Positions 1,126 to 20,868 of a DNA stretch of 36,024 bases are shown piece after piece; the stretch's first letter is position 1, and each line of letters begins with the position of its first letter. The notes beneath the pieces were generated by a model that had not been told where the DNA came from, did no database searches, and worked only from the letters and a program-made list of their open reading frames with translations. The position numbers and the translations under genes are program-made. The stretch spans positions 1 through 36,024 of the forward strand of contig CANGBQ010000004.1 in the NCBI GenBank assembly GCA_947451985.1. The letters are read 5' to 3'. The DNA comes from Chitinophagaceae bacterium. GTDB lineage: Bacteria > Bacteroidota > Bacteroidia > Chitinophagales > Chitinophagaceae.

Positions 1126-2304
1126 CTACTCAGGTTTACTACGGTAGCCTATATATCCGAATTTGCCACCATGACCCATAAAATCTTGATTTACCAACGT
1201 AACGGCCATTCCCTCATGAAAATCGCCTACCCGTTGATACGTTGAGGTAAAAACTTCCTTTCCTGTTTTGTCAATAAATACCCAACTTTGGGCGGGTGTT
1301 GGTTTAACCAATACCTTACCTTCTCTAAAACCGCCTTTTACATCATAATAAGTGTAAGGAATAGCTTGCTTTCCTGTTTTATCTATGAAAATAAATTTAT
1401 TCTGGTCACCAGTCAAATGGACAAGAGCCAATCCTTCCTGAAAGTCAGAAGAACTCACGCATTTTAATTCGATAACGATGTTTCCTTTGTTATCAATGTA
1501 TCGACCCTCTCCCAACTTTGCCAAACCTTCGTGAAAGTCTGTGGCCCAATAATACTCGCAAGGAATTACTTCTTTCCCTGTTTTATCAATAAAGCCCCAT
1601 TTGCCATTTAATTTTACGGCCGCCATGTCTTCATGAAATGATTTAGTAGGATAGTCATACTTGAAACCGGTTATCTCCCTACCTGTTTTATCAATAAAAC
1701 CGAACTTATCTTTTAATAGGACCAAGGCCATTCCTTCATTGAAATCTGAATAATAATCATATTTGCAGGGGATCACCTGCTTTCCTGTTTTGTCGATAAA
1801 ACCCCATTTATCATCTAATTCGACTGCCGCCATTCCTTCGTGGAAACGATAGGCAGTACTGTATTTGCAGGGTATCACCTGCTTTCCTGTTTTGTCGATA
1901 AAGCCCCATTTACCATCTAATTTAACTGCCGCCATTCCTTCGTGAAAATCAACAACAGCATTGTATTGGCAAGGAATCACTTCCTTGCCGGTTTTATCAA
2001 TAAAGCCCTCCTTGCCTTTCGAAACCTTTGCCAGTCCCTCAGAAAAGGGAAAGGCCATAAAATACTTGCAAGGGATTACCTCTTTTCCTGTTTTATCAAC
2101 AAAGCCGTATTGGAATTTGACTCTAACCAAACCCAATCCTTCTTGAAAGTCTGAAGCAGCATCATATGTGCATGGAACAATCTCTTCGATTTTGGTATTC
2201 AATGAACTGGCACTTTGAGCGCAGGTGACACCAACAATTCCTATGGTCAATAAGATGCTGAATAACAATGCTTTCATGCTGTTTTTTGTTTTATATACGT
2301 TCAA
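1126..2304 (-). CDS. WG-repeat-containing exported protein
   Basis: Signal peptide plus roughly ten copies of a unit like GFIDKTGKEVIPCKYDxxxxFHEGMAAVKLDGKW. Confidence 0.92.
   Translation of the reverse strand: MNVYKTKNSMKALLFSILLTIGIVGVTCAQSASSLNTKIEEIVPCTYDAASDFQEGLGLVRVKFQYGFVDKTGKEVIPCKYFMAFPFSEGLAKVSKGKEGFIDKTGKEVIPCQYNAVVDFHEGMAAVKLDGKWGFIDKTGKQVIPCKYSTAYRFHEGMAAVELDDKWGFIDKTGKQVIPCKYDYYSDFNEGMALVLLKDKFGFIDKTGREITGFKYDYPTKSFHEDMAAVKLNGKWGFIDKTGKEVIPCEYYWATDFHEGLAKLGEGRYIDNKGNIVIELKCVSSSDFQEGLALVHLTGDQNKFIFIDKTGKQAIPYTYYDVKGGFREGKVLVKPTPAQSWVFIDKTGKEVFTSTYQRVGDFHEGMAVTLVNQDFMGHGGKFGYIGYRSKPE
1230..2165 (-). repeat. degenerate tandem coding repeats (~70 bp unit) encoding WG repeats
   Basis: Recurring DNA segments such as 'tttcctgttttgtcgataaa(a/g)ccccattt' and 'gccattccttcgtg(g/a)aaa' through the ORF. 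Confidence 0.8.
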
Positions 2305-16353: not shown

Positions 16354-17067
16354 TTGAATAGATTGCCCAGAAGATACAAACACGTTTTTTTTGATTTGGA
16401 TCATACCCTTTGGGATTTTGATACCAATGCGCAACATAGTTTGCACGACCTGTATCATGAATTTGAGCTTCATGCTACTGTAACGCCAGACTTTGAGGCA
16501 TTCTATTCGAAATATATTTATCACAATAAAATACTGTGGGACCGCTACCAGAAAGGATTCATCAGCGTAGATGAATTAAAATGGAAAAGAATGTGGAGAA
16601 CCCTGCTAGAATACAAAATAGGAGATGAAAAGCTAGCAAAAGCACTGAGTGTTCGTTTTTTGGAAATTTTGCCTACAAAAAATAAATTGTTTCCTTATAC
16701 CATCGAGATTTTAGAATACTTACAAGAAAAAAAATACCAGCTTCATTTAATCACGAACGGATTCGAAAAAACCCAGTGGAACAAGTTGCGTAACAGCAAT
16801 ATTGAAAAGTATTTCTCTCAAGTCATTACCTCAGAGAGGAGCAATTCAGTAAAGCCAGAAAAAGAAATATTTGAATTTGCCCTTCAACAAGCAGGCGCCA
16901 CAATTCAGGAATCCATCATGATTGGAGACAACCTGGATGCAGACATTCAAGGAGCAATCAACGTCGGGATGGACAGCATTTTTGTAAATCACATTAGCGT
17001 GTCCGCCCATATACAACCTACCTATACCATAGCTCATTTGCAAGAACTAGAAGCAATACTTAAATAG
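16354..17067 (+). CDS. YjjG-like HAD-superfamily hydrolase (noncanonical pyrimidine nucleotidase type)
   Basis: HVFFDLDHTLWDFDTNA motif I; HLITNGFEKTQWNKL; MIGDNLDADIQGAINVGMDSIFVN; TTG start. Confidence 0.92.
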   Translation: MNRLPRRYKHVFFDLDHTLWDFDTNAQHSLHDLYHEFELHATVTPDFEAFYSKYIYHNKILWDRYQKGFISVDELKWKRMWRTLLEYKIGDEKLAKALSVRFLEILPTKNKLFPYTIEILEYLQEKKYQLHLITNGFEKTQWNKLRNSNIEKYFSQVITSERSNSVKPEKEIFEFALQQAGATIQESIMIGDNLDADIQGAINVGMDSIFVNHISVSAHIQPTYTIAHLQELEAILK

Positions 17068-17078
17068 ATGAAAATAAA

Positions 17079-17101
17079 AAACCTCCTTGTGCAGGAGGTT
17101 T
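17079..17101. terminator. hairpin terminator, probably bidirectional, between convergent genes
   Basis: AAACCTCCT-TGTGC-AGGAGGTTT; A-rich on the left arm and T on the right; sits between a + gene ending 17067 and a - gene ending 17124. Confidence 0.75.
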
Positions 17102-17123: not shown

Positions 17124-17279
17124 TTACATTTCAGTAGTTTTTTTGTCTTTGCTGCAAGGCTTTCCTTTGCAACAAGATTTTCCTTTAGCACATTTTTTAT
17201 TTTTTCCTTTGTCTGTATTGGCAAAAGAAACACCGCTGATCAACAAAGCAGCAGTAGCAAACAATAATACCTTTTTCAT
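17124..17279 (-). CDS. small secreted Cys/Lys-rich protein (51 aa), not in the ORF track
   Basis: Manual translation: MKKVLLFATAALLISGVSFANTDKGKNKKCAKGKSCCKGKPCSKDKKTTEM*; clear signal peptide, 4 Cys in a Lys-rich mature part, ATG start, terminator immediately downstream. Confidence 0.8.
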   Translation of the reverse strand: MKKVLLFATAALLISGVSFANTDKGKNKKCAKGKSCCKGKPCSKDKKTTEM

Positions 17280-17366
17280 AATGATTGATTTTGATTGATT
17301 AATTAGAGTGAAATTACTTAAAAAAGGGCGAAAAAATCAAAATTTACACTTTTGAATATGCAGCCA

Positions 17367-18023
17367 TTATAAGGTAGCAATGACAGTTACACCTCCCTGA
17401 ACTACCTGGTTCAACCCTACCTGCAACTGCGTTCCCAAGGGCAAAAGAAGGTCTACCCGGCTTCCAAATTTGATGAAGCCTAGCTCCTCACCTTGCTTTG
17501 CCTGTTGCCCTATAGTTGCATAATTAACAATTCTTTTGGCCAAGGCGCCGGCGATCTGCTTCACCAACACTTCTGTAGTGCCTTTTTTGATCACCGCGGA
17601 ATGGCGTTCATTTTCAGTGGAAGATTTAGGATTCCAGGCTACTAAATATTTTCCCTTGTGGTATTGATTGTAGACAATCTCTCCACTCAGGGGATACCGA
17701 TTGACATGAACGTTGGCAGGACTCATAAAAATAGAAACCTGCAATCTTTTTTCTTTGAAATACTCGTTATCAAATGTCTCCTCTATCACTACCACTTTTC
17801 CATCGGCAGGAGCAATGATACAATTGTCCTGAATAGTCAGCTGTCGAGCGGGGATTCTGAAAAAAGAAACAATAAATAAAAACAATACAACAGAAAGAAA
17901 TAGAAATAGCCAGCAAAACCAATGACCGATCGTGGGACAAGCCCAGCAAGCTACAAAATTGAGCGCCGTAAGAACAATAGCGGTTATAGCAATGGTTGCA
18001 TATCCTTCTTTGTGAATAGTCAT
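17367..18023 (-). CDS. psd: phosphatidylserine decarboxylase
   Basis: MTIHKEGYATI start (ATG at 18023); IAPADGKVVVIEE; FMSPANVHVNRYPLSG; self-cleavage region GFIKFGSRVDLLLP. Confidence 0.95.
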   Translation of the reverse strand: MTIHKEGYATIAITAIVLTALNFVACWACPTIGHWFCWLFLFLSVVLFLFIVSFFRIPARQLTIQDNCIIAPADGKVVVIEETFDNEYFKEKRLQVSIFMSPANVHVNRYPLSGEIVYNQYHKGKYLVAWNPKSSTENERHSAVIKKGTTEVLVKQIAGALAKRIVNYATIGQQAKQGEELGFIKFGSRVDLLLPLGTQLQVGLNQVVQGGVTVIATL

Positions 18024-18791: not shown

Positions 18792-19781
18792 TTAGTTTGA
18801 TGTAAGAGGATTGCCGTTAGGTTCATGAATCAGCAGCGCTTGTTCACGGGTATAAATGTTCATTTTGTTGGTTTCGGAGTGCTTGTCTAATAATTTAAAG
18901 AAGACAACCAATATTCCAATGGCAAGTAAGCCGACCCACCAGTCAACCTTCGGATCCAATTCACTTACGTCCAATTTCGCTTTTTTAGCACTCAATAAAA
19001 ACATTTGTGAAACAGCAATAGCATTGTTTAAAAAATGGGCGATGATATTGATCCAAATATTTTTGGTTTTAAAATAAATAAGACCCAAAACAAAACCAAG
19101 GATGGCTCGACTCACAAACAAATACACTGATAAATGGATAAAACTAAAAATAAGGGCAGTCACTAAGATTCCCAAAAAGGGATTTTTCCACCATTTCACC
19201 AGGATGTTTTGTAGAGCGCCTCTGAAAAAAACTTCTTCAAACATGGCAGGAAAAAAAGCCATGATGACCAATGCCAAAATATATTCAGGGATACTTTTTA
19301 AGTTACTCAGCAAAACTACTTGTTCGTTGTAAGCGGCTTCTAGGCTTTTGCCCAATGCATTCAATGCAGGAAACAGCGCTATCACTTTTTTGGACAACTC
19401 TTGTAGTGGCATGGCCAGCAGGTTGGCCATGAATATGAGTAAAAAACCAATCGCTACCTGGTAAAGATTCAAATACTTGTTAAAGCCCAGCCAGAATGGA
19501 TTTTTGCCATTGCACACCCATGAATACAACGCAGCAGGAATAAACAACACACACAAAGTACCCACTACCTGCAACATTCTAGAGGCGGAAACATTGGCCG
19601 GATCTTTGAGCGCCTCCAACATGGCTGTCCCTATTTGTGAAAGGGGGGTTCCGGGAGGCACAATGGAAAAACCAATCACCACTTGCAGCACAGTGGTCAG
19701 CATCAATCCCGCACCCAGAAACAGTAACAACATGCCCAATTGACCAACTCCTGTGTAACCTTTATTGCTTTTGTATTGCAT
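18792..19781 (-). CDS. CPBP family intramembrane metalloprotease
   Basis: EEVFFRGALQNIL (EExxxR), FSFIHLSVY, HFLNNAIA; ATG at 19781 (MQYKSNKGYTG) preferred, since the ORF-track extension to 20072 is antisense to dusB. Confidence 0.92.
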   Translation of the reverse strand: MQYKSNKGYTGVGQLGMLLLFLGAGLMLTTVLQVVIGFSIVPPGTPLSQIGTAMLEALKDPANVSASRMLQVVGTLCVLFIPAALYSWVCNGKNPFWLGFNKYLNLYQVAIGFLLIFMANLLAMPLQELSKKVIALFPALNALGKSLEAAYNEQVVLLSNLKSIPEYILALVIMAFFPAMFEEVFFRGALQNILVKWWKNPFLGILVTALIFSFIHLSVYLFVSRAILGFVLGLIYFKTKNIWINIIAHFLNNAIAVSQMFLLSAKKAKLDVSELDPKVDWWVGLLAIGILVVFFKLLDKHSETNKMNIYTREQALLIHEPNGNPLTSN

Positions 19782-19830
19782 ACGCCGTTTATTAATTGTA
19801 ATTTTGCAGTTGCAATATACAAAGAATGCC

Positions 19831-20868
19831 ATGCCCAACATAGGACCTATACAATTGCCCCCTTTTCCGCTTTTATTAGCACCGATGGAAGATGTCAGTG
19901 ATCCTCCATTCAGGGCGGTGTGCAAAGACAATGGCGCCGATGTAATGTATAGTGAATTTATCAGCAGTGAGGGACTAATAAGGGATGCTATTAAAAGCAA
20001 ACAAAAACTGGATTTCAGCGAAGAAGAAAGGCCCTTTGGCATACAGATATTTGGAGGAGATGAAGAAGCCATGTCGTTGAGTGCTAAAATTTGCGAAACG
20101 GTTCAACCCGATTTGGTAGATATTAATTTTGGCTGTCCGGTGAAAAAAGTAGTGAGTAAAGGTGCCGGCGCCGGCGTATTGAAAGATATTGATTTGATGG
20201 TACGCTTAACCGAAGCAGTTGTCAAAAGCACTCAGCTGCCTGTCACTGTCAAAACAAGACTAGGCTGGGATGAACAATCAAAAAACATTGAAGAAGTAGC
20301 AGAAAGATTACAAGACGTGGGGGTGCAGGCATTGTCCATTCATGGACGGACAAGGGCTCAATTATACAAAGGCGAAGCCGACTGGACCTTGATAGGGAAA
20401 GTTAAAAACAATCCCCGGATACACATTCCTATTTTCGGTAATGGCGATATCGACAGCGCCCAAAAAGCCTTCGAATATAAAAACAGGTATGGTATTGATG
20501 GCATCATGATTGGAAGAGCTGCCATCGGTTATCCATGGATATTCAGAGAAATAAAATCTTACTTAGAAGACAAAACCATTCTTGCCCCGCCTACACTTGA
20601 AGAGCGAATTGCCGTGTGTAAAAAACATTTGCATAAATCCTTGGAATGGAAAGGGCCGATTGTGGGCATAAACGAAATGCGCAGACATTATACCAATTAT
20701 TTAAAAGGGTTGCCGGGTATTAAAGAATTCCGATACAAGTTAGTTACCCTCACCGATCCACAGGCCATCAATGAAGTGCTGGATCAAATCAGTGCACATT
20801 ACAAGGACTATCAATTTCAGCATACACCGATTGAAATCATTGATTACCACCAGAAATGCCCATTGTAA
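19831..20868 (+). CDS. dusB: tRNA-dihydrouridine synthase
   Basis: LAPMEDVSDPPFRAVCKDNGADVMYSEFISSEGL, DINFGCPVKKVVSKGAGAG, SIHGRTRAQLYKG, FGNGDIDS, IMIGRAAIGYPWIF; ATG at 19831. Confidence 0.95.
   Translation: MPNIGPIQLPPFPLLLAPMEDVSDPPFRAVCKDNGADVMYSEFISSEGLIRDAIKSKQKLDFSEEERPFGIQIFGGDEEAMSLSAKICETVQPDLVDINFGCPVKKVVSKGAGAGVLKDIDLMVRLTEAVVKSTQLPVTVKTRLGWDEQSKNIEEVAERLQDVGVQALSIHGRTRAQLYKGEADWTLIGKVKNNPRIHIPIFGNGDIDSAQKAFEYKNRYGIDGIMIGRAAIGYPWIFREIKSYLEDKTILAPPTLEERIAVCKKHLHKSLEWKGPIVGINEMRRHYTNYLKGLPGIKEFRYKLVTLTDPQAINEVLDQISAHYKDYQFQHTPIEIIDYHQKCPL

Follow-up and report, generated by a model that had tools for sequence, protein, structure and literature searches.

One short reading frame in the window (the whole 36,024-nt stretch of Chitinophagaceae DNA analysed here) raises two questions: whether it is a gene, and what its 51-aa product could do for the cell.

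The miniprotein gene and its conservation

The initial annotation had described a complete gene for a secreted, basic, cysteine-rich protein, and the comparison with relatives bears this description out. The frame runs from start to stop codon (Table 1) and encodes a leader, MKKVLLFATAALLISGVSFA, and a strongly basic mature part of ~31 residues, NTDKGKNKKCAKGKSCCKGKPCSKDKKTTEM; signal peptide and cleavage were assigned by eye and composition. A translated search of the 35 congeneric genomes (Ferruginibacter, Chitinophagaceae) gave homologs in 29 (E ≤ 3.1e–5), and it found one copy in the own genome. The genus homologs vary in length (47–71 aa) with the frame kept. Their alignment, in which the leader is conserved, has M1, K3, A20, K28, K29 and C37 invariant, and K2, A10, C30, C36, C42 and T48 conserved at 90% or more. 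Coding constraint, which the annotation had put forward as a check, was found: pairwise dN/dS (Nei-Gojobori) is 0.02–0.17 among the closest pairs (0.02–0.07 for the seven closest) and mostly <0.2 beyond them, and the mature part is constrained over all close pairs (pS 0.68, pN 0.15). These values point to strong purifying selection on the miniprotein.

Table 1. Features of the miniprotein locus (positions in the window)
Feature	Coordinates	Strand	Basis or description
Miniprotein CDS, 51 aa	17279..17124	minus	ATG start, TAA stop (stop codon 17124–17126)
Predicted Sec-type signal peptide, residues 1–20 (MKKVLLFATAALLISGVSFA), without lipobox	17220..17279	minus	Sequence; K2-K3, hydrophobic core, A20 nearly invariant
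Cys motif, residues 30–42 (CAKGKSCCKGKPC)	17154..17192	minus	Sequence; genus alignment
Putative Bacteroidota-type promoter: TTG (17340–17338), 21-nt spacer, TAATTTCAC (17316–17308)	17308..17340	minus	TAnnTTTAC conservation
Intrinsic terminator-like hairpin, AAACCTCC-TGCAC-AAGGAGGTTT, then T-rich	17101..17079	minus	~23 nt past the miniprotein stop
psd, presumed phosphatidylserine decarboxylase gene, conserved partner	17367..18023	minus	Upstream of the miniprotein, same strand, 87-nt gap
Presumed HAD-superfamily phosphatase gene (YjjG-like), convergent	16354..17067	plus	Downstream of the miniprotein; tblastn neighbourhood comparison

The gene very probably carries a promoter of its own, since two motifs are enriched upstream of the genus homologs. 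In 22 of 29, TAnnTTTAC is no more than 60 nt from the start codon (0.7 expected from dinucleotide shuffles), and the window's copy differs from it by one base. TTTAACA occurs 40–110 nt before the ATG, upstream of the promoter, in 17 of 29 (1.2 expected from shuffles); it is missing upstream of the window's own copy. Just 3' of the –7-like box, a palindrome, TGATTAATCA, or a near copy of it is seen in the window (17290–17310) and in several homologs (L009, L012, L017, L020, L021, L030), and might be an operator or a 5' UTR element. The terminator assigned to the gene by the initial annotation is recognizable as a hairpin with a T-rich tail, but taken alone it does not exceed chance (1 found versus 1.5 expected in the shuffled region). 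By eye, a hairpin and a T run stand 3' of most homologs.

The short length of the frame and the chance level of its terminator-like site are what one would expect of a spurious frame or of non-coding conservation. This explanation is extremely improbable given the low dN/dS in the closest pairs, the homologs that vary in length yet stay in frame, the promoter element and the lack of any Rfam match. On these comparisons, we regard the frame as real: a chromosomal gene whose small protein product is predicted to be Sec-exported. A mobile-element or phage origin was rejected, as relatives are absent from the plasmid and viral collections searched.

Association with psd across the class

We take the upstream neighbour to be psd; the convergent downstream neighbour is presumably a YjjG-like HAD phosphatase gene. 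The order psd, miniprotein, convergent phosphatase is the same in other Chitinophagaceae genera. Two of the 29 genus loci are cut by contig ends; among the 27 evaluable ones psd lies directly upstream in 25. The phosphatase gene lies downstream in most genus loci and most Chitinophagaceae, and less often beyond. Beyond the genus, homologs are present across Chitinophagaceae and in further families of the class Bacteroidia, and adjacency to psd recurs in other families at both order and class level (L093–L096, L122, L123). Outside the class, 297 phylum-sampled genomes held no members besides four from the same family. Some weak profile matches (L207, L208) lack Cys and were set aside as compositional.

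Loci chosen with a profile would show only what the profile already knew. We therefore picked loci for psd alone in class and order searches, fetched roughly in listing order and not randomly, and defined the slot as a frame on the psd strand starting within 250 nt downstream. The filter required a signal-like N-terminus, a length of 40–170 aa, and a mature part with a CC and three or more Cys. We found a secreted CC-type small frame in the slot of 46 of 119 psd-selected loci, from many families of the class. The same filter applied elsewhere in those loci gave a single match in 648,420 strand-bases (L176, 876 nt from psd). In the remaining loci, the slot is empty or holds unrelated genes. The window's miniprotein, 87 nt from psd, has the features of this psd-linked secreted CC/Lys family. 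Slot members often share too little sequence for a profile; position and composition carry the signal, and for the most divergent members common ancestry is what we infer. Because the psd slot and the CC and Lys/His composition are kept better than the sequence, profiles alone miss the family, and signature plus synteny provide a handle on it in many Bacteroidia families. This class-wide linkage, missing from the initial annotation, is the most informative fact about the locus.

The tie to psd is not obligatory, since several lineages carry copies away from it (family f62 and genera g26, g36 and g41, with f and g numbers as our handles for families and genera), and these copies have no shared partner. 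In f62 (L195, L198, L201, L202, L205) the miniprotein gene lies 3' of a conserved gene (cluster cl0) for a small lipoprotein-like protein. Directly upstream of the non-psd-linked miniprotein of two Chitinophagaceae is a gene for a small CC-containing protein with no NCBIfam match (L264:3084-3398, L265:2871-3224). Three genomes of family f49 (L167, L173, L180) have a secreted TlpA-like thioredoxin (WCSPC) 108–133 nt downstream of psd, in the miniprotein's slot.

Cysteine pattern and comparison with known families

Composition and Cys spacing were analysed in 97 family representatives with <75% identity. The gathering filter demanded Cys and Lys, and the absolute composition of the mature part (30% Lys, 10% Cys, median net charge +8) is therefore partly given by construction. 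Cys spacing was tested against within-sequence shuffles and is free of this bias, except for the later psd-slot filter requiring CC. Among successive Cys, CC is 3.5-fold enriched over shuffled mature sequences (148 observed versus 42 expected); Cx5C (56 versus 24) and Cx7C (40 versus 20) also exceed expectation, while CxC (0 versus 38) and CxxC (1 versus 34) are nearly absent. Such a pattern argues against the motifs typical of metallothioneins, thioredoxins, HMA chaperones, zinc ribbons and c-type hemes; the single CxxC was our ground for rejecting a thioredoxin-like, HMA or c-type heme protein. The spacing first annotated for the window's copy is correct (C30-x5-C36C37-x4-C42). The idea that homologs would share it holds in part: within the genus, hardly any homolog departs from the first Cys and the CC, but both the number of Cys (3 to 9 across the wider family) and their exact spacing vary. 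What the family conserves is the signal peptide, the Lys-rich tail and the CC doublets, rather than exact Cys spacing.

Bulky hydrophobic residues make up 3.8% from residue 31 on. The AlphaFold model (mean pLDDT 54.8, pTM 0.20) shows a helix in the signal peptide only, which suggests that the mature peptide is probably disordered. A defensin-like, disulfide-stabilized peptide was rejected on these values and on Cys counts, which do not favour even numbers (51 even, 46 odd). A small, secreted, basic, Cys-rich product could still be a cationic antimicrobial or signalling peptide. We consider this very unlikely for a mostly single-copy, core-like gene under strong purifying selection, fixed in position beside a housekeeping gene and absent from the plasmid and viral collections, whose product lacks an even-Cys disulfide scaffold; no immunity or exporter partner was recognizable beside the copies examined.

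The initial annotation could name no family, and neither can we: searches of Pfam, NCBIfam, PHROGs, PDB and Rfam gave no clear match above cut-off, and we found no literature on a secreted psd-linked CC/Lys family. The class-wide family appears to be previously unnamed and is absent from the family libraries searched. DUF6520 (PF20130) matches 4 of 29 genus members (best E 0.0013), possibly through the signal peptide only. HYC_CC_PP (NCBIfam NF047658) likewise comprises small Bacteroidota proteins and carries the CC motif in its name, but its profile is 131 positions long and reaches E < 0.05 in 2 of 29 members (best 0.037). A true HYC_CC_PP protein, above cut-off and the sole match in the genome, is encoded on another contig (G000:C115:280-522, L272). 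Like bacterial metallothioneins (SmtA/BmtA, Pfam Metallothio_Pro), whose thiolates bind several metal ions, the miniprotein is small, rich in Cys and Lys, poor in aromatics and presumably unfolded without metal; unlike them, it is secreted and has CC doublets, with no CxC and one CxxC in the 97 representatives. The metallothionein profile matched neither the 29 genus members nor 6 divergent ones. As both the Cys pattern and the profile search speak against it, we do not file the miniprotein under metallothioneins, although by analogy it may work like a secreted one. Conserved small proteins of unassigned function are also collected in the GMSC smORF families (PMC11364881); compared with these by kind alone, the present family is defined by its psd slot and CC/Lys signature.

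Thiol state and possible function

DsbB was found in none of 26 relatives, including this genome (92% complete); VKOR was found in 2 of the 26 and not in this genome. Both searches detected the known systems of control genomes. Read most simply, these results mean that the cysteines of the miniprotein are not enzymatically paired; other, unrecognized thiol oxidases may act in this envelope. Free vicinal thiols accompanied by Lys, and by His in some lineages, suggest that soft metals are bound. His-rich stretches occur in psd-slot members of the order (L230, L231, L236, L238, L249, L253), with His beside Cys in L236 (...CSHGGHPHDHNHSK), L253 (...ECKHSDGKAC...) and L231 (...HNCSDHAH), and two members are Met/His-rich (L037, L085). 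The initial annotation had left metal binding and redox activity side by side. The rarity of CxxC, the lack of an even-Cys bias, the DsbB and VKOR results and the His-rich tails make the evidence lean towards putative metal or free-thiol binding over catalytic redox.

We tentatively favour the view, quite possibly correct, that the miniprotein is a secreted, disordered peptide that binds soft metals through free thiols. Removal of the signal peptide would leave a basic, disordered peptide of ~31 residues in an envelope devoid of the usual disulfide machinery, where its cysteines would stay free. CC doublets with neighbouring Cys or His would hold soft metals, Cu(I) first and then Zn, Cd, Ag or As, and the lysines would keep the peptide near anionic lipid or LPS. 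The tie to psd could then lie in protecting or maintaining the PS/PE membrane made by Psd. Copper has picomolar affinity for PS and micromolar affinity for PE, and it damages membranes (PMC6345494); by analogy with these fungal and model-membrane data, the affinity may be a reason for the link. Several observations count against metal binding. No metal-homeostasis genes were recognized by eye beside the copies examined, CxC, a metallothionein hallmark, is absent, and dominant Lys is by itself no argument for cation binding. The copies away from psd in several lineages count against a psd-based role. A broader version is quite doubtful: across the class, disordered CC/Lys or CC/His peptides expressed beside PE synthesis would shield PS/PE headgroups from copper and other soft metals in Bacteroidia that lack DsbB and VKOR.

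The same charge and composition could serve a structural purpose. Small Cys-rich envelope proteins of chlamydiae are cross-linked by intermolecular disulfides. A cationic matrix or glue peptide might similarly lie with its Lys on anionic lipid, LPS or cell wall and with its CC doublets in intermolecular disulfides. The median charge of +8 with 30% Lys, the predicted disorder, the mixture of odd and even Cys counts, as suits intermolecular links, and the envelope-lipid function of psd all agree with such a peptide. We rate it somewhat unlikely: the His-rich tails are left unexplained, DsbB is lacking and VKOR confined to 2 of 26 relatives, and there is no lipobox. The window's miniprotein has no Cys at +1 for the pattern [LVI][ASTVI][GAS]C and scores 14.4 bits with LPAM_1 (cut-off 20); by eye, the few family members that do have one there deviate from the lipobox consensus. 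Chlamydial OmcA, compared here in kind rather than in sequence, is likewise a small, Cys-rich, envelope-directed protein and a possible cross-linker; the miniprotein differs in having no lipobox and in a genome where the usual disulfide machinery was not found.

Many thiols, probably free and borne on no scaffold, would also suit an envelope redox buffer or sacrificial antioxidant, or a substrate on which secreted thioredoxin-like proteins act; one such protein occupies the same psd slot in the three f49 genomes. This is unlikely, as the near absence of CxxC means that the miniprotein is not itself catalytic, and a ~50-aa protein with four Cys offers weak stoichiometry for bulk thiols unless very abundant. 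If metal binding by free thiols is the true function, it would connect the making of phospholipids with the handling of metals in the envelope, and would show a role for free cysteines where no disulfide-forming system is known.

Two further features of the window lie away from the miniprotein. A WG-repeat-like secreted protein with many FIDKTGKEVIPCKY copies is encoded at 1126–2304 (minus strand). The longest CPBP-protease-like frame (18792–20072, minus) overlaps the divergent dus-like frame (19765–20868, plus) by ~300 nt, and its true start is probably internal (MQYKSNKG...).
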